Part shown: positions 8,694-24,193 of the stretch, piece after piece
Layout of the letters: each line of letters begins with the position of its first letter
How positions within the stretch are numbered: the first letter of the stretch is position 1
NCBI GenBank assembly: GCA_025359165.1
Contig: JANYHG010000032.1
Location: 1 to 59,102 of the forward strand
DNA: 59,102 nt
From: Hyphomicrobiaceae bacterium
GTDB taxonomy: Bacteria; Pseudomonadota; Alphaproteobacteria; Rhizobiales; Hyphomicrobiaceae
Direction of reading: 5' to 3'
The notes under the pieces: generated by a model
Database searches by the model: none
The model's input: the letters and a program-made list of their open reading frames with translations, nothing else
What the model was told of the DNA's origin: nothing
Position numbers and translations under genes: made by a program

Positions 8694-9497
8694 TCAGATA
8701 ACGCGGCGACGGATGGCAGCGGTGACGACTTCGGTCGCGATGACGACGGCAAAGATGACTGCTAAAATCAGTCCGACCTGATCCCAGTAGAGGTTGTTCA
8801 GAGCGGTATCGAGCGACATGCCGATGCCGCCCGCGCCCACCAAGCCAAGCACGGCGCTCTCACGAATATTGATATCCCAGCGCAGCAGGGCGACGCCCCA
8901 GAAGCTCGGCTCGACCGCCGGCCAGTAACCCTTGCTCAAAACACTCAGCGATGGCGCACCGGTCGCTTGTAAGGCTTCGATCGGCCCGCGCGGCGTTTCT
9001 TCAAGTGCTTCCGCCAGCATTTTGCCGACGAAGCCGATGGAGTGAAAGCCGATCGACAGCACGCCGGCGAGCGCACCGGGGCCGAACACCGCCACGAACA
9101 GCAGCGCCCAAAGCAGCGTATTAATCGAACGGGTTGCCACCAGAATGAACGTGGCGATCAGATTGAGCGTACGCGAGCGCGTTATGTTGCGCGCGGCAAG
9201 GAGTGCAATCGGCACCGCCAGCGCGATGGACAGCAGCGTTCCGAGGGTCGCGATGTGCAATGTCTCGATCAGTGCAGCGTGCACTTCTTTTGCATAGTGA
9301 CCCCAATCGAAAGGCCACATGCGCCGGAAGAGATCGGCGGTCTGCGCGGGTGCATCGGCCAGAAATTCGGGGATGATTTCGACCGACCGTGCGGCCCAGA
9401 CTACGGCTGCCGTCGCTGCGAGATAGGTGGCGAAGCGCGCGTTGCGCTGCAGCGGCGTGAAGCGTTCCCAATGACGTGTCGGCGATGCAGCGGTCAT
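8694..9497 (-). CDS. phnE: Phosphonate-type ABC transporter permease (second PhnE)
   Basis: 267 residues, an integral membrane permease of the PhnE family. Hydrophobic segments are spread along the chain (for example LNLIATFILVATRSIN, and AVIFAVVIATEVVTA at the end). The cytoplasmic coupling loop EALQATGAPSLSVLSKGYWPAVEPSF is the EAA-type loop that docks on the ATPase. Its ATG overlaps the stop of the preceding permease gene by 4 bp (9494-9497), so the two are translationally coupled. It is the last gene of phnD-phnC-phnE-phnE, and the operon converges on tRNA-Lys. Two non-identical PhnE permeases in a row are usual for this transporter class. The cargo class (phosphonate, phosphite or phosphate ester) is not readable from the permease. 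Confidence 0.85.
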   Translation of the reverse strand: MTAASPTRHWERFTPLQRNARFATYLAATAAVVWAARSVEIIPEFLADAPAQTADLFRRMWPFDWGHYAKEVHAALIETLHIATLGTLLSIALAVPIALLAARNITRSRTLNLIATFILVATRSINTLLWALLFVAVFGPGALAGVLSIGFHSIGFVGKMLAEALEETPRGPIEALQATGAPSLSVLSKGYWPAVEPSFWGVALLRWDINIRESAVLGLVGAGGIGMSLDTALNNLYWDQVGLILAVIFAVVIATEVVTAAIRRRVI

Positions 9498-10306
9498 TGG
9501 AACAGCCTTCGAATTTGTACCGACACCAGTTCACTGACCATCACGATGGCGATGACGGCGAGCAGGATCGTAAACACGAAGTCATAGTCGAAGCGCTGGT
9601 AAGCCGTGTAGAGCGCGGACCCGATGCCGCCACCGCCGACGATGCCGACCATGGTGGAATTGCGCAGATTGGAATCGAGCTGATAGGCGGTGAAGCCGGC
9701 GAAACGGGCCATCACCTGCGGCAGCACACCCATGATCAAAACATTGGCGAACGACGCCCCCGTGGAGCGCACTGCCTCTACCTGGGCGAGGTCCACCTCT
9801 TCGATTGCTTCGGCAAAAAGCTTCGAGACGAACCCCAGCGTACCGACGATCAGCGCCAGGATGCCGGCAAGGGCACCGAAGCCGACGGCCTTGACGAACA
9901 AGATGGCGACGATCAGCGAATTGAACGAGCGCAGCAATCCGGTCACTCCGCGAGCGGCCCACGACACCCAGCCCGGCATCAGATTGCGCGCTGCCAGCAA
10001 GCCGAGCGGGAGCGCCAACAGCACACCAAAGGCCGTCGCCAAAATCGCGATCTTTATCGATTCCAGCAGACCCTGCCACATGAGATCGAGCTTGAACGGC
10101 TCGACGTTCGGTGGCCACATACGAGCCAGGAAATGCGCGCCCTGGGGCAGGCCCCGCACGATGCGTTCCCAGGTGAAGTCCAGCGTCGAGCTCGCGTAAA
10201 TTGCGTATAGGGCAAGGGCCGTGAAGGCGGCACGGCGAGGCCAGTTCGCGGGCAGCGCAAGGGGTCGTGCGTTCGCCATAGACGTGGCTTGTTTCTGCTG
10301 GGTCAT
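9494..10306 (-). CDS. phnE: Phosphonate-type ABC transporter permease (first PhnE)
   Basis: 270 residues. It has the PhnE layout: an N-terminal membrane segment (RAAFTALALYAIYA), a short periplasmic stretch with MWPPNVEPF, then about five membrane helices. The EAA-type loop EAVRSTGASFANVLIMGVLPQVMARF is near the middle of the C-terminal half, and LDSNLRNSTMVGIVGGGGIG follows, a motif shared by the family. The ATG directly abuts the stop codon of phnC (10307), and its own end overlaps the next permease by 4 bp. It should form a heterodimer with the following permease in the inner membrane and be driven by PhnC. Confidence 0.88.
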   Translation of the reverse strand: MTQQKQATSMANARPLALPANWPRRAAFTALALYAIYASSTLDFTWERIVRGLPQGAHFLARMWPPNVEPFKLDLMWQGLLESIKIAILATAFGVLLALPLGLLAARNLMPGWVSWAARGVTGLLRSFNSLIVAILFVKAVGFGALAGILALIVGTLGFVSKLFAEAIEEVDLAQVEAVRSTGASFANVLIMGVLPQVMARFAGFTAYQLDSNLRNSTMVGIVGGGGIGSALYTAYQRFDYDFVFTILLAVIAIVMVSELVSVQIRRLFQ

Positions 10307-11095
10307 TCAGATCCAACTCTGCCCACCGTAGATGTCGGCCAAGTGCTTTTCGGTCAGGGCGGCGGGCGGCCCGTCGAAGACGATGGCACCTTGCGACATG
10401 CCGACGATGCGGGACGCAAAACGCTTTGCCAGATCGACATTGTGGATATTGATGATCACGGGAATGCCGCGCGCAGACGCCAGATTGCTCATCAGCTCGA
10501 CGATTTCGACAGACGTTTTCGGATCGAGCGATGAGGTCGGTTCGTCAGCGAGCAGGAGATCCGGTTGCTGCATGAGGGCGCGTGCAATACCGACGCGTTG
10601 ACGCTGTCCGCCGGACAATTGGTCTGCCCGGCGGTTCGCGAAATCACCGAGGCCGATGGCGTCGAGTAACTCATAGGCCTGCGCGATGTCGGCCGGCGGA
10701 AAGCGCCGCAACCAGGCTCGCCACGCCGGCACGTAGCCGAGCCGGCCTGTCAGCAGGTTCTCCATGACCGAGAGACGTTCGACCAAGCTGTATTCCTGGT
10801 GCACCATGCCGATGCGGCGGCGCATCTCTCGCAGGCGCTTGCCGCTCAGCCGCGTCATGTCTTCGCCGTGGAACAGAATTTCGCCGCTGGTCGCGGAGAC
10901 GAGACCGTTGACGCAGCGGATCAAGGTAGATTTGCCTGCACCTGACGGACCGATTACCGCGGTGATACCGCGCTCGCCGAATACGAGATCGATATCCCTG
11001 AGTATCGGCTTGTCCAGCACGTAGGATTTACAAAGGCGGCGAATAACCAGGGATGCACCGGATGACGTAGCTTCGCTCGACGTAACAGTGGTCAT
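10307..11095 (-). CDS. phnC: Phosphonate-type ABC transporter ATP-binding protein
   Basis: 262 residues. Nucleotide-binding motifs are complete: Walker [11 protein letters not shown]-loop [13 protein letters not shown], signature [15 protein letters not shown], Walker [13 protein letters not shown] and switch histidine INIHN. The insertion [14 protein letters not shown] between Q-loop and signature is typical of PhnC rather than of general amino-acid ATPases. Its ATG overlaps the phnD stop by 4 bp (ATGA). It powers import through the two PhnE subunits. No C-P lyase (phnGHIJKLM), phosphonatase (phnX) or phosphite dehydrogenase (ptxD) gene is in the window, so the metabolic use of the imported compound must be encoded elsewhere. 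Confidence 0.9.
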
Positions 11096-12153
11096 GGCTT
11101 GGCAGGGGTCGCGACGGGAGCAGGTTGTGCGGGCGGTGCCGCTGCCTTCTTCGCTGCAGCTTCAGCTTCGCGTTTCTGCGAGGCCTCGTAGGCGGTCTTG
11201 TTGTAGGGCGTGCCAGATTTTTCGGCGACGTCGCGGATCGGCTTCCAGGTCTCTTTGTAGGTTATCCGCACGAAGCGGTCGAAACCGGGATATTCTTTCC
11301 GCAGCCCTTCGGGAAAACGATAGTCCTCAAAACACTTGCGGATGGTCGCTTGCAGTTCCGGCTTGAGGTCGTGCGCATAGGTGACGCCGAGCGTGGGAAA
11401 CGTTTCGCTCTTCCAGATGATGCGGAATGCATCGGCTTTGATATCGCCGCGAGCGACCATGCGCTCGATGATGTCGGATGCGACAGGGGCCATATCGTAG
11501 TCGCCGGAGAGCACGCCCAGGATGGACTTGTCATGTCCTCCGGACATGAGTGGTTTGTAGTCTTTGTCCGGCACAAGGCCCTGGTCGGGAAATAAGACTC
11601 GCGGCGCAAGGTTGCCCGAATTTGACGACGGCGCGACATGTGCAACGCGCTTGCCTTTGAGATCGCCTAATGACTGATACGGGCTGGCGGTTTTGACGAC
11701 GGCCCACAGCCGGTAGCCCGCGATCTCCTTGTCGTTGCCGACCGCGACGAAGGGTACGGCTCCTGCGAGGTTGACCCCGAAACCGACCGCACCCGTGGAC
11801 AAGCTTGCGACGTGGAGCCGCCCTGAACGCAATGCTTCGATCTGTGCGCTCGACGATTGCGCCGAGTAATAGACCACTTTCTTGCCCGTGCACGCGGCCA
11901 GACGGTCGATGACGGGTTGATACACAACGGCGTAAACGGCAGGGTTTTCGACCGGCGCATACGAGAAGACCAAGGTGGACGGGTCTTTCCACTTGGCGGG
12001 ATCGACCGGCGTGTCAGCCACCAGATCTCCGTCGGCGTCGCAATATTGCGCGTCGAGTTGGCCGCGATCGGGGCAGGCATCCTGCGCCTGAACCAGCGTC
12101 GGGATCGCAGGCAGTGTGACTGCGAAAAGCCAACGTGCAAAATTTGAACGCAT
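11092..12153 (-). CDS. phnD: Phosphate/phosphite/phosphonate ABC transporter substrate-binding protein
   Basis: 353 residues from the chosen ATG at 12153, which begins [26 protein letters not shown], a Sec signal peptide with a cut after VQA. A further frame to 12192 adds 13 residues without a signal-like purpose. Body motifs fit Phn[40 protein letters not shown] and [21 protein letters not shown]; the serine/asparagine stretch lines the oxyanion pocket in the family. The C-terminal tail ([17 protein letters not shown]) is a low-complexity extension. The early stretch [21 protein letters not shown], with two cysteines, is an insertion before the usual start of the fold. First gene of the phn operon, so the promoter should lie in 12154-12456. 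Confidence 0.87.
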
Positions 12154-12456
12154 GCCCGGAACGCCCCCTTGTTGGTGGTCTGTCGAACCCACTCGCGGTA
12201 CGCAGCATCACCGGATCGACAATAGGGCCAAGGTGCGCGCGAAGGCAATCTGCTCGAGGCAAGACCGCTGCTGTAGATGCTGTCGGGTCGACAATCGGAC
12301 AAACCGCTGGGCAGCTGTTGCCGTGCGATGCCTAAATTATGTGCCGAAGCTCTCTTGCCGGCAGGGTTCGGGCCTCATAGCTTGCCTCTCGAGACGACGT
12401 GTGCGCTCCGGCACGATTACGAAATCAGGGGTCGAGATCGGCATTCGGGAGGTCGT
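12154..12456. promoter_or_regulatory. Divergent control region between phnD and the peptide importer
   Basis: 303 bp between two operons transcribed away from each other. It contains a direct near-repeat, CGGATCGACAATAGGG at 12211-12226 and CGGGTCGACAATCGGA at 12284-12299 by eye (13 of 16 bases alike), which could be a regulator site. I could not find a convincing Pho box. GGGAGGT at 12447-12453 is the ribosome site of the rightward gene. Confidence 0.35.
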
Positions 12457-14061
12457 ATGACATTCAGTCGTAGAACTGCACTCAAGGGTCTGGGTAGCGC
12501 TGGATTGTTGGCATCAAGTGGATTGCACGCGCCGGCAATCTCGCAAGGTGTGGCGGCCAAAACTTTGAAGTTCGTACCGCAATCCAATCTCGCGAATTTC
12601 GATCCGATCTGGGGCACGCAGTATGTCGTGCGCAACGCGGCAGCGCTGGTCTGGGATACACTGTACGGCGTCGACGACAAGTTGCAGCCGCAGCGCCAAA
12701 TGGTCGAAGGTGAAGAGGTGTCGGCGGATGGCCTCGTCTGGACATTCAAACTGCGCGACGGCCTGAAATTTCACGACGGCGAGAAGGTGCTGGCCAAGGA
12801 CGTGGTCGCCAGTATGGACCGCTGGTCGCAACGCGATCCGATGGGGCTGATGATCCGTGGTGTCCAAAACGAATTGGTTGCCGTCGACGATCGCACCTTC
12901 AAATGGTCGCTGAAAAAGCCTTATCCGAAAATGTTGCTGGCGCTGGCCAAGAACAATGCGCCGTGCTCGTTCGTCATGCCCGAGCGAATCGCCAAGACCG
13001 ACGCGTTCAAGCAGATCACGGAGTACATCGGCTCGGGTCCGATGAAATTCGCGAAAAGCGAATGGGTGCCCGGCGCGAAAGCAGTCTTCGAGAAGTTCGC
13101 CGACTATGTGCCGCGCAGCGAGCCGGCGTCGTGGCTGGCCGGCGGCAAACGCATGCTGGTGGATCGCGTCGAATGGATCATCATGCCGGATCCGGCAACG
13201 GCTGCGGCAGCGCTGCAAAGCGGCGAAGTCGATTGGTGGGAAAACCCGATCTCCGATCTCGTGCCGCTACTCAAGAAAAACAAGAACATCAACGTCGATA
13301 TTGCCGATCCGCTCGGAAATATCGGTTCTTTCCGGATGAACCATCTGCAGGCGCCGTTCAACGACGTCAAAGTGCGTCGTGCAGTGCTGACGGCGCTCAA
13401 CCAGGAAGACTACATGCGCGCGCTGGTGGGCAGCGACGATACGCTGTGGAAGCCGGTGCCCGGGTATTTCACGCCGAATACGCCGCTCTACACCGAAGAG
13501 GGTGGTGAAATCCTGAAGATGCGCAATATCGAAGCGGCCAAAAAGTTGCTCGCCGAGAGCAGCTACAAGGGGGAACCTGTCGTGTGCGTGGTGGCGCAGG
13601 ATCAGCCGATCACCAAAGCACAGGGCGACGTGACGGCCGACCTGTTGAAGAAGATCGGCATGACGGTCGATTTCGTGGCGACGGACTGGGGTACGGTCGG
13701 CGCGCGGCGTGCCAAGAAGGATGCGCCCGGTCAGGGTGGCTGGGGCATGTTCCACACATGGCATGCGGGTGCGGACTGCATCAATCCGGCGGCCTATACG
13801 GCAATCCGGGCAAACGGCGACAAGGCCTGGTTCGGCTGGCCCGACGTGCCGGAAGTCGAAGCGCAAGTGACGGCGTGGTTCGACGCGACCGATCTCGCAG
13901 GCGAAAAGGCGGCGATCGGCAAATTGAACAAAGCGGCGCTCGACTCGGTGGTTTATGCGCCGACTGGATTTTTCCTGGGTTACCAAGCTTGGCGCAAGAC
14001 CGTGTCGGGCGTGGTAAAAGGTCCGTTACCGTTCTTCTGGGACGTTTCCAAAACCGCTTGA
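12457..14061 (+). CDS. Peptide/nickel-type ABC transporter substrate-binding protein
   Basis: 534 residues from the ATG at 12457, which follows a strong GGGAGGT. A longer frame from 12277 lacks a ribosome site and would bury the export signal. The N-terminus MTFSRRTALKGLGSAGLLAS is a twin-arginine signal. Family SBP_bac_5 features follow: SNLANFDPIWGTQYVVRNAAALVWDTLY, then ADGLVWTFKLRDGLKFHDGEKVLAKDV, and a C-terminal WRKTVSGVVKGPLPFFWDV. It binds cargo in the periplasm and delivers it to the permeases encoded next. Tat rather than Sec export means it is probably folded before transport. It heads a six-gene operon ending with an amidase, which points to peptides or amides as cargo. The exact ligand cannot be read from sequence. 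Confidence 0.9.
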   Translation: MTFSRRTALKGLGSAGLLASSGLHAPAISQGVAAKTLKFVPQSNLANFDPIWGTQYVVRNAAALVWDTLYGVDDKLQPQRQMVEGEEVSADGLVWTFKLRDGLKFHDGEKVLAKDVVASMDRWSQRDPMGLMIRGVQNELVAVDDRTFKWSLKKPYPKMLLALAKNNAPCSFVMPERIAKTDAFKQITEYIGSGPMKFAKSEWVPGAKAVFEKFADYVPRSEPASWLAGGKRMLVDRVEWIIMPDPATAAAALQSGEVDWWENPISDLVPLLKKNKNINVDIADPLGNIGSFRMNHLQAPFNDVKVRRAVLTALNQEDYMRALVGSDDTLWKPVPGYFTPNTPLYTEEGGEILKMRNIEAAKKLLAESSYKGEPVVCVVAQDQPITKAQGDVTADLLKKIGMTVDFVATDWGTVGARRAKKDAPGQGGWGMFHTWHAGADCINPAAYTAIRANGDKAWFGWPDVPEVEAQVTAWFDATDLAGEKAAIGKLNKAALDSVVYAPTGFFLGYQAWRKTVSGVVKGPLPFFWDVSKTA

Positions 14062-14079
14062 GCGAACGGACAACTGCGA

Positions 14080-15021
14080 ATGCTGGGTTACGTTCTCAGG
14101 CGCATTCTATCGACAGTGCCAGTGATGGCGATCGTCGCGATGATCGTATTCAGTCTGCTTTATCTGGCGCCGGGCGATCCGGCGTCGGTTATCGCTGGCG
14201 ATCAGGCGACGCCCGAAGATGTCGCCCGCATTCGCGCCAATCTTGGTCTCGATCGCCCGTTTCTGGTTCGCTTTTTCGAATGGAGCGGGCAGATCGTGCG
14301 TGGCGATCTCGGCACGTCCATTTTCACGAACTTGCCGGTGACGTCGCTGATCAAGCAACGCATCGAACCGACGTTGTCACTGACACTCGTGACGCTGATC
14401 TTGTCGGTGCTCGTCGCTGTGCCGCTCGGAGTGCTGGCGGCTTGGAAAGTCGGGACTTGGCTCGACCGTGGGATCATGGCGCTGGCAGTGGTCGGCTTCT
14501 CCGTGCCGGTGTTCGTCGTCGGCTACGTGCTCGCATACTTGTTTGCGCTCGTGCTCGATTGGCTTCCCGTGCAGGGGTACACGCCGATCGCGCAAGGGTT
14601 CTGGCCGTGGATCCAGAACCTCATCCTGCCGTCGATCGCACTGGGCGGCATTTATATCGCGTTGATCGCCCGCATCACGCGGTCGGCGATGCTGGATGTA
14701 TTGGCGCAGGATTATATCCGCACGGCGCGTGCCAAAGGGTTGGGTCAAACTCCGACTCTTTTTGTGCATGCGCTTAAAAACGCTGCGGTTCCGATCGTGA
14801 CGGTGATCGGGCTCGGCATGGCCCTGTTGATCGGCGGGGCGGTCGTCACGGAGAGCGTGTTCGCCATTCCGGGTCTCGGCCGATTGACGGTCGATGCCAT
14901 CTTGCGCCGCGACTATCCTGTGATTCAGGGCCTCGTGCTGATGTTCAGTTTCGTCTACGTGCTGGTCAATCTGCTGGTCGACATCTCCTACACGTTTCTC
15001 GATCCGAGGATCAAATATTGA
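14080..15021 (+). CDS. Peptide ABC transporter permease (DppB-type)
   Basis: 313 residues. It begins MLGYVLRRILSTVPVMAIVAMIVFSLL, the typical first membrane helix of DppB/OppB permeases, followed by the periplasmic PGDPASVIAGDQATPEDVARIRANLGLDRP. Five further helices follow, with the coupling loop DYIRTARAKGLGQTPTLFVHALKNAAVPIV (EAA type). The end, FLDPRIKY, is the family's usual C-terminus. It starts 18 bp after the binding protein and its stop overlaps the TTG start of the next gene (TTGA at 15018-15021), so the operon is tightly coupled. With the next gene it makes the membrane channel. Confidence 0.93.
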   Translation: MLGYVLRRILSTVPVMAIVAMIVFSLLYLAPGDPASVIAGDQATPEDVARIRANLGLDRPFLVRFFEWSGQIVRGDLGTSIFTNLPVTSLIKQRIEPTLSLTLVTLILSVLVAVPLGVLAAWKVGTWLDRGIMALAVVGFSVPVFVVGYVLAYLFALVLDWLPVQGYTPIAQGFWPWIQNLILPSIALGGIYIALIARITRSAMLDVLAQDYIRTARAKGLGQTPTLFVHALKNAAVPIVTVIGLGMALLIGGAVVTESVFAIPGLGRLTVDAILRRDYPVIQGLVLMFSFVYVLVNLLVDISYTFLDPRIKY

Positions 15022-15950
15022 ACGTCGCTCCAAGGCTTGACATGGTACGGCTAGACACGGGCCGCGACAGTGCCGCGAGAGTGGATTTGCCGCCGGTCTG
15101 GCCGCCCATCCGCCTGCGCACCGGCGTGTGGGGTTGGATCGCGCGCTATCCCAGCATCGCGCTCGGGTGTTTCCTGCTGTCGATCATGCTGGTGGGTGCC
15201 GTGTTCGCACCCTGGCTCGGTACGGTCGATCCGACGGCTATCGCAACCGTCAAACGGACGCGTCCACCGGGGGCCGAATACTGGTTCGGCAGCGATATGC
15301 TCGGACGCGACATCTACTCGCGCGTCCTCTACGGGACGCGTGTTTCGCTACTGGTCGGGTTCTCGGTCGCGGTGGTCGCTTCAGTCGTGGGGCTACTGCT
15401 CGGATTGGTGTCGGGATTCGTGCGGTGGGCCGACGGCGTGATCATGCGCTTCATGGACGGCATGATGTCGATCCCGCCGATCCTGCTGGCGGTCGCACTG
15501 ATGGCACTGACGCGCGGCAGCGTCGGCAATGTGATCGTCGCAATTTCGGTGGCGGAATTTCCGCGCGTAGCCCGACTGGTGCGCGGCGTCGTGCTGTCGG
15601 TGCGCGAGCAGCCGTTCGTCGATGCGGCCATCGCATCGGGCACCCGGACGCCGGTCATCATCTGGCGTCACATTCTGCCGAACACGTTGGGGCCGTTGAT
15701 CGTGCAGGCGACCTATATCTGCGCCTCCGCCATGATCACCGAAGCGATCCTGTCGTTCATCGGTGCGGGCACGCCGCCGACGATCCCGTCGTGGGGCAAC
15801 ATCATGGCCGAGGGCCGCGCGCTCTGGCAGGTCAAGCCGTTCGTGGTTTTCTTTCCTGCCATCTTCCTGTCGATCACGGTGTTGGCGGTCAACCTGCTCG
15901 GCGACGGTCTGCGCGACGCGCTCGATCCACGCGGCCAAAAGGATCGCTGA
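15018..15950 (+). CDS. Peptide ABC transporter permease (DppC-type)
   Basis: 310 residues. The start is a TTG at 15018 inside the stop of the previous gene, supported by GAGGA at 15006-15010, seven bases away. An ATG at 15042 is a weaker alternative. Family marks are the N-terminal helix GCFLLSIMLVGAVFAPWLG, then WFGSDMLGRDIYSRVLYGTRVSLLVG (the LGTDxxGRD motif of DppC), and the coupling loop AAIASGTRTPVIIWRHILPNTLGPLIVQ. The end, DGLRDALDPR, is standard. It pairs with the DppB-type permease and the two ATPases that follow. Confidence 0.93.
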   Translation: MNVAPRLDMVRLDTGRDSAARVDLPPVWPPIRLRTGVWGWIARYPSIALGCFLLSIMLVGAVFAPWLGTVDPTAIATVKRTRPPGAEYWFGSDMLGRDIYSRVLYGTRVSLLVGFSVAVVASVVGLLLGLVSGFVRWADGVIMRFMDGMMSIPPILLAVALMALTRGSVGNVIVAISVAEFPRVARLVRGVVLSVREQPFVDAAIASGTRTPVIIWRHILPNTLGPLIVQATYICASAMITEAILSFIGAGTPPTIPSWGNIMAEGRALWQVKPFVVFFPAIFLSITVLAVNLLGDGLRDALDPRGQKDR

Positions 15951-15954
15951 CCCA

Positions 15955-16971
15955 ATGGCACTTCTCGAAGTCGACCACTTGCGCACGCACTTTCGGACCC
16001 CCGGCGGTATCGTACGTGCCGTCGACGGCATTTCGTTTCACGTCGACGAGGGCGAGGTGGTCGCCATCGTGGGCGAAAGCGGCTGCGGGAAATCGGTCAC
16101 CGCGATGTCGATCCTGCGTCTCATTCCAGAGCCACCCGGCCGCAGTGCGGGTGCCGTGCGCTTCAACGGTCGGGACCTGTTGCAGGCGACCGAAAAAGAG
16201 ATGCGCAAAATCCGCGGCAACGATATCTCGATGGTGTTTCAGGAACCGATGACGTCGCTCAATCCGGTGCTGACGATCGGGCGGCAAATCGGCGAGGCGC
16301 TGCAGCAACATCAGGGTCTCGGTAAAAAAGAAGCTTTGGCGCGCGCGGTCGACAGCCTGGCGACTGTCGGCATTCCGGAGCCTGCGCGACGCATCACGCA
16401 GTATCCGCACGAGTTGTCGGGCGGGATGCGGCAGCGTGTGATGATCGCGATGGCGCTCGCCTGTTCGCCAAAGCTGCTGATCGCCGATGAACCCACGACC
16501 GCGCTCGACGTGACCGTGCAGGCGCAAATTCTCGATCTTCTGCGCGGTCTCAACAAGCGGATCGGATCGGCACTCATTCTAATCACCCACGATCTGGGCG
16601 TCGTCGCGGAAATGGCGCAACGGGTTATCGTCATGTACGGAGGCAGAAAGGTCGAGGAAGCGCCCGTCGCGGAGCTGTTCGCCAATCCGCGGCATCCCTA
16701 TACGCGTGCGCTTTTGAAATCGGTGCCGCGTCTCGACACAATACGGCATCCGACTGGCAGCCAGCGGCTCAACGAAATTCCGGGAACGGTCCCGAGCCTG
16801 CGCGACGAGATCGCCGGATGCATCTTCGCGCCGCGCTGCGGTTTTGCGACCGACCAGTGCCGTGGAGCATATCCACCGCTCGAAACCAAGGGTCGCGGAC
16901 ACAGCGTCGCGTGCTGGGAAGCCGACCATTTGTCTGTGCTCTCGGTCGGCAACGTCGAGATGAGCGCATGA
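15955..16971 (+). CDS. Peptide ABC transporter ATP-binding protein (DppD-type)
   Basis: 338 residues from the ATG at 15955. Longer frames upstream run through the permease gene and are shadows. Motifs are Walker [12 protein letters not shown]-loop [11 protein letters not shown], signature [15 protein letters not shown], Walker [13 protein letters not shown] and switch LITHDLGVV. The C-terminal oligopeptide-transporter domain is present: [15 protein letters not shown], then [15 protein letters not shown], whose cysteines could take part in an iron-sulfur cluster as proposed for DppD-like ATPases. The stop overlaps the start of the next ATPase gene (ATGA at 16968-16971). Confidence 0.93.
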
Positions 16972-17933
16972 CACAGCCAGTCCTGGAAGTTCGCGATCTG
17001 AAGAAGCATTTCGATGTCGGTGGCGGTTGGCTTGGAAAGTCGGGGCAAAGCGTCAAGGCCGTGGACGGCATCAGCCTGACGCTCGGCGCGCGCGAAACGC
17101 TTGGCCTGGTTGGCGAGTCCGGCTGTGGCAAGTCGACGGCAGGGCGATTGATCCTGCGGTTGATCGACCCAACCGAAGGTGAGATCCATCTCGACGGCAA
17201 GCGCATCGATGGCCTTTCGCGTAGACAGATGCGGGCGCAGCGACGCGGGTTGCAGGTGGTTTTTCAAGACCCTTACTCTTCGCTCAACCCGCGTTTGCGA
17301 GCGGTCGACATCGTCGCCGAGCCGCTGCGCAATTTTGAACCGCTGAGCCGCGAGGAGATCCAGGCGCGGGTTGCGGCGTTGTTTGAGAAAGTCGGTTTGC
17401 GGAAGGACCAACTTTCCCGTTATGCGCACGAGTTTTCTGGCGGCCAGCGGCAACGGCTGGTCATCGCGCGGGCGCTTGCGCTCAACCCTAAAGTCATCGT
17501 CTGCGACGAGCCGGTATCGGCGCTCGATGTCTCGGTGCAGGCTCAGGTGATCAATCTGCTGATCGATCTGCAGGCGGAGTTCGGGGTGTCGTACCTGTTC
17601 ATCGCGCACGATCTGGCCGTCGTGCAGCATATTTCGCACCGGGTGGCGGTGATGTATCTCGGGCGCATCGTCGAACTGGCGGAGAAGAAGGCGCTGTTTG
17701 CACAGCCACAGCATCCCTACACCGAGGCGCTGCTGTCGGCGGTGCCGGTGCCCGATCCGTCGTTCCAGTCGAAGCGTATCATTCTGAACGGCGATGTGCC
17801 GAGCCCGATCAATCCGCCGAGCGGGTGCCACTTCCATACGCGTTGTCCGATCGCCGTTGCACGCTGCAAGTCGGAAGCACCGGCCCTGCGGGAAGTTTCA
17901 GATCAACACTTTGCCGCCTGCCATCTAAGATAA
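16968..17933 (+). CDS. Peptide ABC transporter ATP-binding protein (DppF-type)
   Basis: 321 residues. The start is the ATG at 16968, which overlaps the preceding stop; the same frame is open further left but lies within the DppD-type gene. Motifs are Walker [31 protein letters not shown] (typical of DppF/OppF), signature [15 protein letters not shown], Walker [15 protein letters not shown] and switch FIAHDLAVV. The C-terminal domain has [16 protein letters not shown] and [15 protein letters not shown]. With the DppD-type protein it forms the ATPase heterodimer of this importer. The amidase gene begins 15 bp later. Confidence 0.93.
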
Positions 17934-17948
17934 GCGAATGGAATTCCC

Positions 17949-19289
17949 GTGATGTCGAGCAACCCGATCGATCTGAGCGCGGTGGCGGCGGCCGAGGCGA
18001 TCGCTTCGCGTCACCTCACCTCGGAAGCGCTGACGAAAGCCTGCCTCGCGCGCATCCAGGCGCGCGAGGCCGACGTACGCGCGTGGGCGCATCTCGACGT
18101 CGACTATGCACTTTCGCAGGCGCGCGCGGCGGACAAAAAATTGGCCGGTGGCGAACCATTGGGTGCGCTGCACGGTGTGCCGGTCGGCGTCAAAGACATC
18201 ATCGATGTCGCGGGGCTCGGCTGCGAACACGGATCGGCGATGTTCGCAGGCCGGATGCCAGAACACGATGCGCTGTGCGTCGCCGCGCTGCGGTCGGCCG
18301 GTGCGATCATTCTCGGAAAAACGGTGACGACAGAGCTTGCCAACCGCAGCGCCAATCAGACCCGCAATCCGCACAATCTGGCCCATACGCCGGGGGGTTC
18401 GTCGTCGGGCTCAGCAGCGGGGATCGCCGATCGCATGATGCCGCTCGCACTGGGTACGCAGACCGCAGGCTCGGTCATCCGGCCGGCGTCATATTGCGGG
18501 ATTCATGGCATCAAACCGACGTTGGGCACAATCCCGCGCGGCGGCGCGCTGCTGCAATCGCACACGCTGGATACGATCGGTCTTTACGGTCGATCGGTCG
18601 AAGATCTGGCGCTCGGGCTGGATGTGCTGTCGGTGGAAGAGCCGAACGATGCGATGAGCTATCCGCGCGCGCGGGTCCGGTTTCTCGATCATGTCCGCCG
18701 TGGAGCAGGGGCAAAACCGAAGCTGGCGTTCGTACGCTCGCCTGTGTGGGATGCGGGCGAGGCTGCTATGCATACGGCATTGGAAAATTATGCGCGGTCG
18801 CTCGGCTCTGTCGTGAAAGCGATCGATCTGCCGGCGTCGTTCGAGCGGGCACGTGGGTATCAGTCCGTGATCATGGCGACGGAGTCGGCGCATTATTATG
18901 GGCCGTTGCTGGACGCGCATCCCGACACTATGAGCCAAGCTCTGCAGCAGCGGTTGGTGGCGGGGCGGGCAGTTCACGCCTGCGACTATGTCGATGCGCT
19001 GCAGGCACGCGAGCCGCTCTATCATGAGCTTGCCAACGTGCTCGACACGTTCGATGCCATTCTGACACCATCCGCGCCGTCCATCGCGCCGCGCGATCTG
19101 GGCTTCACCGGCGATCCGGTTTTCAATGTGATCTGGACGTATCTGGGGGTGCCCTGCTTAAACCTGCCGCTGCTCGAGATCGACGGCATGCCGCTTGGCG
19201 TCCAACTTGTCGGCAAGCGGCGCGAAGACGCCAAGCTGCTTGCGACGGCGCGGTGGCTGGAGGAAGCTACGCGCGGCGCAGGCTCGTGA
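17949..19289 (+). CDS. Amidase signature family hydrolase
   Basis: 446 residues from the GTG at 17949 (an ATG follows at once at 17952). The Ser-cisSer-Lys triad of the amidase signature family is intact: Lys82 in GVPVGVKD, the cis-serine Ser151 in PGGSSSGSAAG, and the nucleophile Ser175 in GTQTAGSVIRPAS. No signal peptide is seen, so it is cytoplasmic. It hydrolyses carboxamide or related C-N bonds; members range from acetamidase to allophanate hydrolase and GatA. This one lacks GatB/GatC neighbours, so it is not GatA. It sits 15 bp after the last transporter gene and is probably co-transcribed, which suggests that it processes the imported cargo. Its stop is only 3 bp from the stop of soxA on the other strand. 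Confidence 0.87.
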   Translation: MMSSNPIDLSAVAAAEAIASRHLTSEALTKACLARIQAREADVRAWAHLDVDYALSQARAADKKLAGGEPLGALHGVPVGVKDIIDVAGLGCEHGSAMFAGRMPEHDALCVAALRSAGAIILGKTVTTELANRSANQTRNPHNLAHTPGGSSSGSAAGIADRMMPLALGTQTAGSVIRPASYCGIHGIKPTLGTIPRGGALLQSHTLDTIGLYGRSVEDLALGLDVLSVEEPNDAMSYPRARVRFLDHVRRGAGAKPKLAFVRSPVWDAGEAAMHTALENYARSLGSVVKAIDLPASFERARGYQSVIMATESAHYYGPLLDAHPDTMSQALQQRLVAGRAVHACDYVDALQAREPLYHELANVLDTFDAILTPSAPSIAPRDLGFTGDPVFNVIWTYLGVPCLNLPLLEIDGMPLGVQLVGKRREDAKLLATARWLEEATRGAGS

Positions 19290-19292
19290 TCA

Positions 19293-20099
19293 TCATCGCC
19301 TGACGCCCGGTGCATCCAGCGGCAGATCCTGCGACCGCCATGCCAAGTAGAGTTCCAGCGCGACATACTCGGGGCTGCCGAACGGCAGCTGTTCTGCGCG
19401 GACACCCAGACTGCACGCACGCAAACGACGGTGCAGCGACCCCATCGTCTGCCATTCGAATCGATAGGCCGGCCATCCCCCGCTTTGGCCTTGGCTGATG
19501 GTGTCGCCACGCAGTTTCTGGCCGACGCTCTGATCGTGACACTGGGTGCACGCAAGGTTGAGCTGGCCCTGGCGCGTCACAAAGAACGAGCGACCGGCCT
19601 CGAATTGTGCGGCGGCTGCGCCATCAATCTTCACGTCGCGCGGCATGCCTCGGGACTGCAAGGTTATGTAGGCAGTCAGCGACAGCAAGGGCGCGCTTTC
19701 GTAGGCGTAGGGCGTAGCATGCTGCCGATCGGTGCGGCATTGATTGATACGGCCTTCCAGGTTCAGCAGCGCACCAGACTTGGCGTCGATCTGCGGGTAG
19801 CGGGTGGCGACGCCCTTCATGCTGGCGACAGCATCGCCGTGACAACCCGCGCACGACTTTCCATCGCCTGCGTCGGTGCTGGACCAAAGCTTTTCACCTT
19901 GTCCGACCCAGAGCATCGCGGGGTTGGCGCCATCATCTGCCTGCTGGGCTTGGGTGGCCGGTGATTGGTAGACATTGCCGGGCTTGGCAATGGCCGGGCG
20001 CGACGGAAGGTTGGTTTGCGCAGCCAAACTGCACAAACCCACGGCCTGCGATGCAGCGAAAACCAGCCCCACCACTATTGTCGATCGAAAGCAACTCAC
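19293..20099 (-). CDS. soxA: Sox sulfur-oxidation diheme cytochrome c, SoxA
   Basis: 268 residues from a GTG start that directly follows the soxZ stop. A Sec signal peptide is seen (TIVVGLVFAASQAVGLCSLAAQ). There are two haem sites, CAGCH at 83-87 and CTQCH at 184-188. The SoxA-specific cysteine is Cys229 in RLRACSLGVRAE, the residue that in the family becomes a cysteine persulfide and haem ligand at the active site. The end (YVALELYLAWRSQ.LPLDAPGVRR) is diagnostic of SoxA. With SoxX it joins thiosulfate oxidatively to the carrier SoxY in the periplasm. It is the last gene of the six-gene operon and ends tail to tail with the amidase gene, only 3 bp apart. Confidence 0.92.
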   Translation of the reverse strand: MSCFRSTIVVGLVFAASQAVGLCSLAAQTNLPSRPAIAKPGNVYQSPATQAQQADDGANPAMLWVGQGEKLWSSTDAGDGKSCAGCHGDAVASMKGVATRYPQIDAKSGALLNLEGRINQCRTDRQHATPYAYESAPLLSLTAYITLQSRGMPRDVKIDGAAAAQFEAGRSFFVTRQGQLNLACTQCHDQSVGQKLRGDTISQGQSGGWPAYRFEWQTMGSLHRRLRACSLGVRAEQLPFGSPEYVALELYLAWRSQDLPLDAPGVRR

Positions 20100-20432
20100 T
20101 CAAGTCACCGTCAGGGTGCGGGTCTCGACGGTTTTGCGGCCAGCGAGATCGGTCCATGTAAACGTGACGGGGCCGCTGTCGCCGACGATGGTGGAAAACG
20201 CGAAATATGGGTTGGCGGAAACGCCGGCAAACGTATCGGCAGCAAAGATGATCTCATCGAGATAGCGAACTTCGAAGTGCGCAACGATGTCACGCGGAAT
20301 GACGCGGCCATTCGCATCGCGGCGATAGCCGGTTTCCATCTCGTGTTGGATCAGCGTTTTGATGTCGATGATGTCACCGCGCTTGGCGGTCGCGGGCATT
20401 GAAATGCGCGTCGGGTGCGGTGTGTCGGCCAC
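20100..20432 (-). CDS. soxZ: Sox sulfur carrier subunit SoxZ
   Basis: 110 residues, of usual SoxZ length, with a GTG start preceded by GGAGA. The body fits SoxZ: RISMPATAKRGDIIDIKTLIQHEMETGYRRD near the start, then VRYLDEIIFAADTFAGVSANPYFAFST and a final beta-rich FTWTDLAGRKTVETRTLTV. It has no export signal of its own; in known systems SoxZ leaves the cell bound to SoxY by the Tat route. It forms the heterodimer that holds the SoxY carrier arm. The gap to soxY is 15 bp and to soxA is zero. Confidence 0.93.
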   Translation of the reverse strand: MADTPHPTRISMPATAKRGDIIDIKTLIQHEMETGYRRDANGRVIPRDIVAHFEVRYLDEIIFAADTFAGVSANPYFAFSTIVGDSGPVTFTWTDLAGRKTVETRTLTVT

Positions 20433-20447: not shown

Positions 20448-20936
20448 TCAGCCGCCGTCGAGGCAGGCGGATAGCGTCACGAGGACGGACATGGTGCCCG
20501 ACCAAAGCGTACCGTCGCTCATTTCAGCCAATGCAGTCACGGTTTGCGTCGTCGCCAAACGAATGGTGCTTTGCACGCGGGCGCGACCGGAGCGCGGCCC
20601 GAGATGGTAGCGCGCGATAATGGCGAGCGGGTTTTGGCCGGCGATGATATGGATCGTTTTGACAAAGTCGGTCGCCGTCATGGCGCTCTCGACTTCGACA
20701 GAGAGTGCGACGACGTTACCGTTTTCGGCGAGCTCGGGCAGAACGAGTTTGACGCGCCCGGGCTTGATTTCGCGGCCGGCTGCGATGTGCGCGATCGCGG
20801 CTGTCGCATTGCCATCGTCCTCGAAAGCTGCGGCTGCTGGCCACGCCGATCTCGTCAGTGCCGCCGCCGTGGCGCCTGCAACGACGCTACGGCGCGAGAG
20901 TGTCGGCAGAATTCGGGTGCACGAAGGCTGCGGCAT
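20448..20936 (-). CDS. soxY: Sox sulfur carrier subunit SoxY with a variant C-terminal arm
   Basis: 162 residues from the ATG at 20936, two bases after the soxX stop; the longer frame to 21209 runs back through soxX. A Tat signal is seen (LSRRSVVAGATAAALTRSAWPAAAA). The body (AREIKPG-like GREIKPGRVKLVLPELAENGNVVALSVEVES) matches SoxY. In canonical SoxY the chain ends GGCGG, whose cysteine carries the sulfur intermediate. Here it ends SACLDGG, so the cysteine is kept (Cys158) but the flanking glycines on its N-side are replaced and two residues, Leu-Asp, are set before the final Gly-Gly. That is an unusual arm. It still looks like a working carrier, but reach or partner choice may differ. Confidence 0.88.
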   Translation of the reverse strand: MPQPSCTRILPTLSRRSVVAGATAAALTRSAWPAAAAFEDDGNATAAIAHIAAGREIKPGRVKLVLPELAENGNVVALSVEVESAMTATDFVKTIHIIAGQNPLAIIARYHLGPRSGRARVQSTIRLATTQTVTALAEMSDGTLWSGTMSVLVTLSACLDGG

Positions 20937-20938
20937 GA

Positions 20939-21499
20939 TCACTTCCCGAGCGAACTTAAAAAGGCGACGACGTCCTCGATCTCGATCGGCGACAAGACTG
21001 GCTTGTCGCGATAACGCGCATCGACCCGCGTAAGATGCCCAGTGCGATACAACGGCGGCATGAGCGTCAGAGGCGACAGCCGACTTTGGTCGACCAGTCG
21101 GAGGCGAATCTGCGCCGGCATCAAACGAGCGCCGACACCATCGAGAGGCGGACCGATCGTTCCCTGGAACTGCTCGCCCGGCACGGACAGCTGATGGCAA
21201 ATCAGGCAATTCCCATTAGCGCGGTCGAGTACGATGGCGCGACCCCGCCGGGCATCGGGATGCTCTGTCGTCAGCGGCACCGGAATGGCATCCGCGACGA
21301 CTTCGACATCATCCGGCGCGACAATGTTGGAGACGACATCGATCTTCGCGCCGACCGCTTGGGCCTGCGCGAAGATGGGTTGTAAAGAGACCAGCAGGGC
21401 AAATGCAGCAACTCTTGCAAACCACGCGAGGTGCCGCGACGCTGGCGGTACCTCCCATCGTCGTTCGCATCGCTGACGCTGCGACCGCCCTTGCCTCAT
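20939..21499 (-). CDS. soxX: Sox monohaem cytochrome c, SoxX
   Basis: 186 residues. The ATG at 21499 overlaps the stop of the molybdenum hydroxylase gene by 4 bp. A signal-type hydrophobic stretch (about 24-47, ending AQAQA) lies after a 23-residue basic lead. There is one haem site, CLICH at 98-102, with the likely axial methionine Met147 in LTLMPPLY. SoxX marks are IGPPLDGVGARL and LSPIEIEDVVAFLSSL. It forms SoxAX with SoxA and receives electrons when thiosulfate is joined to SoxY. The translational overlap with iorB ties the Sox genes to the Mo enzyme. Confidence 0.9.
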   Translation of the reverse strand: MRQGRSQRQRCERRWEVPPASRHLAWFARVAAFALLVSLQPIFAQAQAVGAKIDVVSNIVAPDDVEVVADAIPVPLTTEHPDARRGRAIVLDRANGNCLICHQLSVPGEQFQGTIGPPLDGVGARLMPAQIRLRLVDQSRLSPLTLMPPLYRTGHLTRVDARYRDKPVLSPIEIEDVVAFLSSLGK

Positions 21500-23724
21500 G
21501 CGCGAAGTTTTACATCGCGGATCGGTAGCGAACGCACCGGCTTACCGGTTGCTGCAAATATGGCGTTGAGCACCGCGGGTGCTGCGACGCAGATCGTCGG
21601 CTCACCGACACCTCCCCAGAATCCGCCCGATGGCTTAAGAACGGTTTCGATCTTGGGGAAATCTTCGAGACGCATGCTCTCGTAGGTATCGAAGTTCTCC
21701 TCGACGACGCGACCATCCTTGATGGTGATCTTCTGATAGAGGGATGCCCCGAGACCGTAGGCGACCGAACCCTGAACCTGGGCCTCTATCTGATCGGGGT
21801 TGACCGCGTATCCGCAATCGGTGCCCATCACGAGGCGATGGACCTTGAGTTTGCCGCGATCGGAGACCGAGACTTCGGCTGCTGCGGCGACGTAGCTGCC
21901 ATACCCCATGTGCTGGGCGATACCGCGGAACACGCCATCGGCGGGCTTGGTGGTTTCCCAGCCGATCTTCTCGGCGACAGCATTGAGAATGCCAAGATGC
22001 TTGGGATATTTCGCCATCATCTTGCGGCGGAAGGCGAGGGGTTCCTGGCCGGCTTCCTTGGCGAGTTCGTCCATAAAGCATTCGAGATAGACGGCGTTCT
22101 GGTTATTGTTGACACCGCGCCAGAAGCCGACGGGTATGTGCAGATTGCGCATCGCGTATTCGATGGAGCGATCAGCGATGTCATAGCCGAACTGCCCCTC
22201 CGGACCATCAGCGTTGAGGCCCTGATAGGCCGCAGGATCGGAGCCGTCTTTGTTCAGGCGCGATGGCGCGACCGCCGTCAAGATCGATGGGCCGGAGATA
22301 CGCATCTTGAAGCCGGTGATATTGCCCTGAGCGTCGAGGCCGGCATCTAGTTTGCATTGCGAGACCGGGCGGAAACGGCCCTGTCGCATATCTTCTTCGC
22401 GCGTCCAAATGGTTTTGACCGGAATGCCGGGCAACTGCTTGGCGAGCAAGACGGCCTTGGTCGTGTAGTCCTGGAAGCCACGGCGACCAAAACCACCACC
22501 GAGATGCACTTTGTAGACTTCGCACTTCGATGGCGGCAGGCCGGATGCTTCCGCGGTCGCCGCCAGCGATGCATCGCCGTTCTGTGTGGCGACCCACACT
22601 TCGCACTTGTCCGCCGTCCATTTCGCGGTGCAGTTCATCGGCTCCATGGTGACATGGTTCCAATAGGGGCTGTCATAAGTTGCGGAGATTTTCTTGGCAG
22701 AAGTTGCAATCGCCGCATCGGCATCGCCCGCCTTATTGCCGGTGAAGATACCTTCGTTCGACGTCAGGCCCGCCTTCAGAAGCTCGGCGATGCTGGCGGT
22801 CGACACTTTGTTGTTGGCTGTCTCGTCCCAGACCGGGCTCAGCGCATCGAGACCTTTTTTGGCCTGCCAAAACGTTTCGGCCACGACGGCAACGGCGGTG
22901 TCACCGACTTTATAGACACCCTTCACGCCCGGCATCGCTTTGACTTTGGCTTCGTCGTAGCTCTTCAGTTTGTTGCCAAATACGGGTGCGTCCATGATCG
23001 TCGCGGTCAGCATGTCGGGCAATTTCAAATCGATGGCGTAGACTTGTTTGCCATTGAGTTTATCGGCGGTGTCGAGCCGTTTGACACCCGCTTTGCCGAT
23101 CAGCTTCCAGGCCGAGGGATCTTTGAGTTTGACCGTCTTCAGGTCTGGGACCGGCAGCTTGGATGCTTCGCCGACGAGCTTGCCATAGGTGGTGGACTTG
23201 CCGGACTTGGCGTGGGTCACGGTGCTGTTTTCAGCTTTCAACTCGTCGACCGGGACGCCCCATAGTGTCGCTGCGGCCTGCAACAGCATGCCTCGCGCTG
23301 CGGCACCGCCCTGCCGCACATAATCCTGCGAACCGCGAATGCCGCGGCTGCCGCCGGTCGACATGTCGCCCCACACGCGATTGCGCGCGAGGTTCTGCCC
23401 AGGGGTCGGGTACTCGGCTTTGACTTTGGTCCAGTCACACTCGAGTTCTTCAGCAACCATCTGCGCAAGACCGGTCAGCGTGCCTTGGCCCATCTCGGAG
23501 CGTGCAATCCGGATCGTGACCTGATCATCGGGCGCGATCACAACCCAGGCGCTGACTTCGCCAGCGGTCGTCGCATCGGCCAACACCTTCTGTGCCAGCG
23601 CTTTCGTTATGAGGCCGCCGGCCCCTACGCCGAGTGCCAAGCCGCCAACGGCCGATGCACCAACGATGGTGCGGCGCGATACTTGTTGCGCGGTCGAGTT
23701 CGAATTTTGCTTCACGTTTTTCAT
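21496..23724 (-). CDS. Molybdenum hydroxylase large subunit (isoquinoline 1-oxidoreductase beta/aldehyde dehydrogenase type)
   Basis: 742 residues, of the usual length for IorB-type large subunits. It has a twin-arginine signal at the start (SRRTIVGASAVGG), so it works in the periplasm. Molybdopterin-binding motifs of the xanthine oxidase family are visible: GQGTLTGLAQMVAEEL, MSTGGSRGIRGSQDYVRQGGAAAR, LGGGFGRRGFQDYTTKA and GFWRGVNNNQNAVYLECFMDELA. Near the end, GGVGEPTI contains Glu708, the likely catalytic base of the family. It should oxidise an aldehyde or N-heterocycle and pass electrons to the iron-sulfur subunit encoded 10 bp upstream. Its stop overlaps soxX by 4 bp, so a c-type cytochrome acceptor is plausible. 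The substrate is unknown. Confidence 0.88.
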   Translation of the reverse strand: MKNVKQNSNSTAQQVSRRTIVGASAVGGLALGVGAGGLITKALAQKVLADATTAGEVSAWVVIAPDDQVTIRIARSEMGQGTLTGLAQMVAEELECDWTKVKAEYPTPGQNLARNRVWGDMSTGGSRGIRGSQDYVRQGGAAARGMLLQAAATLWGVPVDELKAENSTVTHAKSGKSTTYGKLVGEASKLPVPDLKTVKLKDPSAWKLIGKAGVKRLDTADKLNGKQVYAIDLKLPDMLTATIMDAPVFGNKLKSYDEAKVKAMPGVKGVYKVGDTAVAVVAETFWQAKKGLDALSPVWDETANNKVSTASIAELLKAGLTSNEGIFTGNKAGDADAAIATSAKKISATYDSPYWNHVTMEPMNCTAKWTADKCEVWVATQNGDASLAATAEASGLPPSKCEVYKVHLGGGFGRRGFQDYTTKAVLLAKQLPGIPVKTIWTREEDMRQGRFRPVSQCKLDAGLDAQGNITGFKMRISGPSILTAVAPSRLNKDGSDPAAYQGLNADGPEGQFGYDIADRSIEYAMRNLHIPVGFWRGVNNNQNAVYLECFMDELAKEAGQEPLAFRRKMMAKYPKHLGILNAVAEKIGWETTKPADGVFRGIAQHMGYGSYVAAAAEVSVSDRGKLKVHRLVMGTDCGYAVNPDQIEAQVQGSVAYGLGASLYQKITIKDGRVVEENFDTYESMRLEDFPKIETVLKPSGGFWGGVGEPTICVAAPAVLNAIFAATGKPVRSLPIRDVKLRA

Positions 23725-23734
23725 GGCGACGCCC

Positions 23735-24193
23735 TCACGCTTTCTTCATGTCGGCGGCCATGTGCACCGCAGCGCGGATGCGCTGATAGGTGCCGCAGCG
23801 GCAGATGTTGGTCATCGCGGCATCGATGTCGGCATCGCTCGGCTTTGGTGTTTTAGCCAACAGAGCGGTTGCGGCCATGATCTGGCCGGACTGGCAATAG
23901 CCGCATTGCGGCACATCGAGAGCGAGCCACGCCTTCTGCACGGGGCTGCTGCTATCAGCGGACAGGCCCTCGATCGTCATGATTTTGTCGGCAGCTTTGA
24001 CATCCTTGACGCTGATCGTACACGACCGCTGCAGTTCGCCGTTGATCTGGACGGAGCACGCGCCGCACTGGCCGACGCCGCAACCATACTTCGTGCCCGT
24101 CAAGCCCGCTTGCTCGCGGATAACCCATAACAAGGGCGTGTCGCCATCGACCTTCAAGTCAAGCATTTTACCGTTGATGTTCAAATTTGCCAT
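23735..24193 (-). CDS. Molybdenum hydroxylase [2Fe-2S] small subunit (IorA-type)
   Basis: 152 residues, the standard length. Two iron-sulfur sites are complete. The plant-ferredoxin-type site has C38, C43, C46 and C58 (CGVGQCGAC...C). The second site has C97, C100, C131 and C133 (CGYC...CRC). No signal peptide is seen; such subunits are exported together with the Tat-bearing large subunit. It carries electrons from the molybdenum centre toward an acceptor. It is the first gene of the operon iorA-iorB-soxX-soxY-soxZ-soxA, and the promoter should lie in 24194-24599. Confidence 0.92.

Follow-up and report, generated by a model that had tools for sequence, protein, structure and literature searches.

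Ala-Cys-arm SoxY proteins, a widespread branch of the Sox carriers encoded with a molybdenum enzyme instead of SoxB

Described SoxY families and the window operon

The soxB gene is commonly used as a marker for Sox-type sulfur oxidation. The SoxY of the canonical thiosulfate system (TIGR04488; Paracoccus pantotrophus structure 2oxg) ends in GGCGG, and NCBIfam already names a paralog clade, TIGR04487 'SoxY-related AACIE arm protein' (SoxY_para_1), in which an Ala precedes the arm Cys and GGCGG is lacking. In TIGR04557, the quinoprotein-dehydrogenase-associated SoxYZ-like carrier, a carrier of the SoxYZ type is paired with a dehydrogenase from outside the Sox system. IorAB-like periplasmic molybdenum dehydrogenases, among them the deoxyribose dehydrogenase of Pseudomonas simiae (PMC6365646) and 8gy3, combine a Mo enzyme bearing a Tat signal with a [2Fe-2S] subunit; in the accessible part of the P. 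simiae report electrons are proposed to pass to cytochrome c, and no Sox carrier is described there. A large SoxY survey deleted sequences without GGC as poor quality, a filter by which the AACIE-arm clade would be excluded, and proposed, in the part accessible, a possible role in other metabolism for other divergent SoxYs (PMC11237559). Among the literature matches listed, with most subscription journals outside coverage, there was no paper on an AACIE-arm SoxY ('AACIE' itself occurred only in unrelated papers) and no description of an ior-sox operon. The operon-wide pairing, the exclusion of soxB and the presence in isolates without SoxB, all reported below, thus appear to be unreported.

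The window investigated here, a stretch of 59,102 nucleotides from a Hyphomicrobiaceae bacterium, contained a minus-strand operon in the order iorA-iorB-soxX-soxY-soxZ-soxA, neighbouring genes overlapping or lying 0 to 15 nt apart. The iorB and soxX genes overlapped, soxX and soxY were 2 nt apart and soxZ and soxA 0 nt. The iorA-like gene (23735..24193; PF00111, PF01799) encoded the [2Fe-2S] subunit and the iorB-like gene (21496..23724; PF02738, PF20256) a molybdopterin subunit with a twin-arginine signal, the motifs GVGEP and GGGFGRR and, as nearest solved relative, the aldehyde dehydrogenase large subunit 8gy3_C (254.6 bits). MoCoBD domains, GGGFGRR, GxGE and a [2Fe-2S] partner subunit were all found, and these we take to be the marks of a xanthine-oxidase-family Mo hydroxylase of the IorAB type. 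The products of soxX (20939..21499; TIGR04485, 68.1 bits, cut-off 61), soxZ (20100..20432; TIGR04490, 85.6 bits, cut-off 76) and soxA (19293..20099; TIGR04484, 225.1 bits, cut-off 110) all scored above their own curated NCBIfam cut-offs, and SoxA had two CxxCH motifs and the Cys haem ligand (RACSLGVRAE). The partner of the Mo enzyme in the window operon is thus SoxXYZA, in which it differs from the IorAB-like dehydrogenases described so far, as far as the accessible part of that literature goes. No soxB was present in the operon. A promoter and terminator scan gave signals no more frequent than chance. On the minus strand at 9494-12192, near the sox operon, lay an ABC transporter set that by eye we take to be phosphonate-type, and a plus-strand ABC set at 12277-19289, presumably peptide-type with an amidase, converged on soxA.

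The soxY gene (20448..20936, 162 aa) was a real open reading frame, starting with ATG at 20936 and encoding a Tat-like SRR motif and the Pfam domain PF13501 (95.6 bits). Its C-terminus read Val-Thr-Leu-Ser-Ala-Cys158-Leu-Asp-Gly-Gly-stop (VTLSACLDGG). The arm SACLDGG with its stop codon occupied 20448..20471, the arm Cys158 being the TGC at 20465-20463. As had been predicted, the minus strand at 20448-20465 reads TGC CTC GAC GGC GGC TGA, that is Cys158-Leu-Asp-Gly-Gly-stop, with Ser156-Ala157 upstream. The arm was indeed slightly longer, with four residues after the Cys and not two. That it is also less flexible, as the original prediction held, is left unproven by an AlphaFold2 model (pLDDT 85), in which the last residues are coil with a pLDDT of about 48. 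The model has the SoxY fold, and the best PDB matches were the Paracoccus SoxY entries 2oxg and 2ox5 (TM-score on the target 0.84-0.89 for 2oxg and 2oxh chains).

The best NCBIfam family for this SoxY was TIGR04487, with 160.5 bits, 11.5 bits short of the curated cut-off of 172. The scores of three relatives were 161.2 (L009), 166.5 (L011) and 191.7 (L014). The Ala before the Cys and the lack of GGCGG agree with TIGR04487, as do the soxX, soxZ and soxA neighbours and the ior-type genes found upstream in annotated Methylobacterium and Neorhizobium plasmids, although the window arm ends in LDGG and not in IE. Against canonical TIGR04488 the protein scored 98.9 bits (cut-off 125). The window shares with the canonical Sox thiosulfate system the arm cysteine, the SoxZ partner and SoxXA, but it lacks the GGCGG end, and its cluster lacks soxB and soxCD. 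In TIGR04557 the SoxYZ carrier is fused and the dehydrogenase is another one, and the window SoxY scored 53 against a cut-off of 140. By its sequence, the window SoxY falls in the named paralog clade and is not an aberrant SoxY. The same seven arm residues were found in L009 and L010, of which L010 differed from the window by synonymous changes at 6 of 7 codons, and Ala157 and Cys158 were invariant among 30 aligned relatives. A sequencing slip or frameshift was ruled out as the source of the tail, since L009 and L010 keep the seven residues and the L010 changes are synonymous.

Arm type and gene linkage

Relatives were collected in a single scan, for which four AACIE-type SoxYs were aligned as the query, and the best 80 of 463 loci were taken. 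They spanned Alpha-, Beta- and Gammaproteobacteria and Rokubacteriota. Within these best 80 of 463, Ala preceded the arm Cys in all 80 tails, and with the window added Cys-x-[Glu/Asp] was kept in 80 of 81, the exception being L075. Chance as the origin of the tail was ruled out by this conservation and by the invariant Ala157-Cys158 of the 30 aligned relatives. The iorB gene lay beside the sox genes in 76 of the best 80 loci and soxB in none. Among the four loci without a neighbouring iorB, L035, L079 and L085 were at contig ends or on short contigs, and L010 had no iorB beside its sox genes; an IorB 59-85% identical was found on another contig in the genomes of L010, L035 and L079. The partner proteins were also kept among these best 80 loci, with the Cys haem ligand of SoxA in 79/79, two haems in 78/79, and the IorB motifs GGGFGRR and GxGEP or GxGEA each in 72/73.

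A flavoprotein resembling the flavin subunit of flavocytochrome c sulfide dehydrogenase (FCSD) was present in 55 of the best 80 loci; the Methylobacterium one matched 5n1t with 433 bits. When 12 genomes were searched with a protein query, the FCSD-type flavoprotein was present in nine, G002 gave a match of 27% only, and the window genome and that of L009 (G001) had none. The flavoprotein is thus an optional member of the operon. Apart from ior, sox, cytochrome and flavoprotein genes, the neighbours of the related loci were lineage-limited or generic. Two neighbour clusterings brought out no further conserved neighbour, which ruled out that the operon hides a substitute for SoxB; the second clustering is the better one, since the first was muddied by shadow frames.

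On the Methylobacterium plasmid NZ_CP087107 the relative is annotated as an AACIE arm protein, and the genes run iorA-iorB-cytochrome-flavoprotein-soxX-soxY-soxZ-soxA (the names iorA and iorB were assigned here). Close variants of the operon occurred on Neorhizobium galegae and Roseomonas marmotae plasmids. It was also carried by two MAG records titled Bordetella parapertussis (L026) and Klebsiella pneumoniae (L036), which are probably mislabelled environmental bins.

The best 80 loci were picked by similarity and are by themselves no test of an association between arm and linkage. As TIGR04487 also matches true SoxY, it was used to search a sample of the whole class Alphaproteobacteria, in which 70 of 289 genomes had a match, giving 73 regions and 71 unfused SoxYs, whose neighbours were scored with profiles built here. 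The iorAB-linked SoxYs (n = 29) were Ala-Cys in 28 cases and Gly-Cys in one (L214, SGCI), all 27 soxB-linked SoxYs ended in GGCGG, and those with neither soxB nor iorAB (n = 15) comprised ten GGC and five Ala-Cys arms (Fisher p 7.6e-15 for arm against linkage, the related rows not being independent). In a phylum sample of 397 genomes, 122 with a match and 79 regions, Ala-Cys was found in 20/20 iorAB-linked and GGCGG in 36/36 soxB-linked SoxYs, and there was no Ala-Cys among the 23 SoxYs with neither gene. No locus with both soxB and iorB was detected in either sample. The residue before the arm Cys thus separates iorAB-linked from soxB-linked SoxYs cleanly, and since 63/63 soxB-linked SoxYs were exactly GGCGG, the change of the arm accompanies the loss of SoxB linkage.

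The expectation of a different set of partners beside a Mo hydroxylase is strongly supported by this lack of overlap in two samples, and an ending like that of the window, whose frequent occurrence in soxB clusters would have spoken against that expectation, was found in 0/63 soxB-linked SoxYs. The predicted tie to iorB-soxX junctions was also borne out, on few rows: iorB lay directly against soxX in 6/6 iorB-linked SoxYs ending in DGG, compared with 43/110 other same-strand cases.

Several other SoxY arrangements were observed. At L199:7899-14160 two iorAB-like pairs lay beside a SoxY with the arm GACVED and about 36 residues after the Cys, together with a flavoprotein, soxX and soxA. A natural SoxY-SoxZ fusion via GGCGAPGAP at L174:3455-4327 adjoined a flavocytochrome-c-like pair, with no soxB nearby. 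Ten SoxYs of the phylum sample (L265, L267, L268, L269, L271, L274, L277, L278, L279 and L281) had arms like AEGGCAG or AAGGCVG and formed a separate variant with neither soxB nor iorAB nearby. Intermediate arms ending in GGCGAG, GGCST, GGCGS, GGCAS or GGCIT were found in L171, L181, L183, L187, L188 and L202, where neither soxB nor iorAB lay within some 8 kb; these are possibly further carriers freed from SoxB.

SoxB in the host genomes and descent of the arm

The absence of soxB that had been predicted held for the cluster and failed for the genome: SoxB (759.6 bits, cut off by the contig end) was present on another contig of the window genome, and a second SoxY, ending in GGCGG, on a further one. 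This canonical soxY was followed by soxZ and a short-chain-dehydrogenase-like open reading frame on contig C260 (L002:1328-2244, L221), and the soxB lay at the truncated end of contig C151 (L003/L222), not after the canonical soxYZ. Among the 79 host genomes of the best 80 of 463 loci (that of L087 was left out), SoxB scored above its cut-off in 55 (33/50 and 22/29), and in G077 it was in two pieces. In 23 of the 79 no SoxB was found, and as the assemblies are drafts its absence there is likely, not certain; 12 of these records were not titled as MAGs (L017, L019, L023, L024, L029, L035, L049, L050, L051, L063, L064 and L076). A set of 50 host genomes contained both canonical SoxY and SoxB in 32 cases, canonical SoxY alone in one, SoxB alone in one and neither in 16, and the canonical SoxY loci fetched from these genomes ended in GGCGG in 30/30.

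A tree of 116 SoxYs, built with the arm columns removed, grouped the window with L009 and L010 (97), within a weakly supported clade of 55 rows (SH-aLRT 80) of which 52 were iorAB-linked and three unlinked. This clade also held rows above the TIGR04487 cut-off, such as L148 and L149. A second clade of nine rows, with arms GACS, GACN, GACGG or SGCI, stood apart (100), and iorAB was near in 6/9. The tree suggests that the Ala-Cys arm arose twice, independently, and a single origin was not rejected (AU p 0.40). The GACS-arm SoxYs L203, L207 and L210 had soxX, soxZ and soxA and no iorAB nearby; of the GACS-arm genomes, G139 and G320 contained only a distant IorB (<=36%), and no IorB was found in G239 at E 1e-30. 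IorB distances correlated more closely with those of the AACIE SoxY (r 0.78 over 378 pairs) and SoxA (0.77) than with those of the canonical SoxY in the same genomes (0.45), a pattern that would also be expected if the operon were simply inherited as a unit.

Possible roles of the arm

The reading that we favour, at about even chances, is that a periplasmic module independent of SoxB, made up of IorA, IorB, SoxX, SoxY, SoxZ and SoxA, has the window SoxY as its dedicated carrier, with an arm shaped for IorAB and not for SoxB. In its favour are the split of arm types by linkage in both samples, the 23/79 host genomes lacking SoxB, the want of a conserved neighbour able to replace it, the kept catalytic motifs, the closer correlation of IorB with the AACIE SoxY and the tight spacing of the operon. 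Judging from the intact two-haem, Cys-ligated SoxA, SoxXA would load the arm cysteine by oxidative coupling of a sulfur-containing substrate. With its Ala before the Cys and an acidic residue two after, the arm would have ceased to be the glycine arm that serves SoxB. It would pass its load on to IorAB, an enzyme of the xanthine oxidase family, and IorAB would oxidise this load, taking over from SoxB and SoxCD. The substrate, the physical hand-over and the release step we infer. Electrons from IorAB may pass to a c-type cytochrome, for which SoxX is a possible candidate; most relatives add an FCSD-like pair, and the window genome does without it. Against this reading stand the GAC-arm clade with iorAB near only 6/9 of its SoxYs, the SGC arm of the iorAB-linked L214 and the SoxB found elsewhere in the window genome and in 55/79 host genomes. 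A wider claim, which we hold only tentatively, is that of a complete, mobile oxidation pathway free of SoxB and SoxCD, in which SoxYZ presents a covalent substrate to the Mo hydroxylase and the Ala-Cys-x-acidic arm is the docking signature. If true, this would possibly be the first xanthine-oxidase-family Mo hydroxylase acting on a protein-bound substrate.

The load might instead be carbon, the arm thiol holding an organic group (an aldehyde hemithioacetal or an organic-thiol disulfide) which IorAB oxidises, so that sulfur is the handle and not the fuel. The aldehyde dehydrogenase likeness of IorB, the oxidation of deoxyribose by the IorAB-like enzyme of P. simiae (PMC6365646) and other SoxYZ variants adjoining alcohol, methanol and formate dehydrogenases (PMC11237559), as given in the accessible parts of these sources, are in keeping with this; SoxXA with its Cys-ligated haem in 79/79 and the sulfide-dehydrogenase-like flavoprotein in 55/80, both among the best 80 of 463 loci, point to sulfur chemistry, and we regard a carbon load as unlikely. 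SoxB-dependent work could also be done in trans, given the SoxB above cut-off elsewhere in the window genome and in 55/79 host genomes. The AACIE SoxY would then be an ordinary thiosulfate carrier, as its ordinarily scoring SoxZ, SoxX and SoxA would allow, and iorAB a neighbour inherited along with it that plays no part in the mechanism. The operon is however kept without SoxB in 23/79 genomes, 12 of them isolates judging by their titles, and every soxB-linked SoxY of the two samples had the GGCGG arm, which makes such a role rather improbable.

Gene linkage could likewise be a sign of shared regulation, with IorAB oxidising a free small molecule whose sulfur product is handled by SoxXYZA, or with these roles exchanged, and with no hand-over between proteins; the change of the arm would then reflect nothing but the lost SoxB constraint. 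Linkage and co-inheritance are no proof of contact, and iorAB is divergent or absent in the GAC-arm clade. The arm is nevertheless not merely relaxed, since the conservation of Ala157-Cys158 and Cys-x-[Glu/Asp] argues that the new arm has a positive function, and two parallel modules seem improbable to us. Loss of soxY function is disfavoured: a genome with a canonical SoxY could afford to let a paralog decay and its arm drift freely, but the arm changes relative to L010 are synonymous only, the catalytic motifs of the partner proteins are kept and the operon is conserved across three classes of Proteobacteria and Rokubacteriota, so that decay is scarcely credible.

As the residue before the arm Cys separates the two kinds of SoxY cleanly, the question of the partner is directly testable. 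SoxY is usually read as a thiosulfate carrier, and here a SoxXYZA set occurs in isolates in which no SoxB was found, a molybdenum enzyme accompanying it in nearly all cases. The clade escapes surveys that demand GGC in SoxY, and annotation based on soxXYZA may credit such bacteria with thiosulfate oxidation. The Ala-Cys-arm SoxYs are a widespread, unstudied branch of the Sox proteins that is encoded together with a molybdenum enzyme in the place of SoxB.
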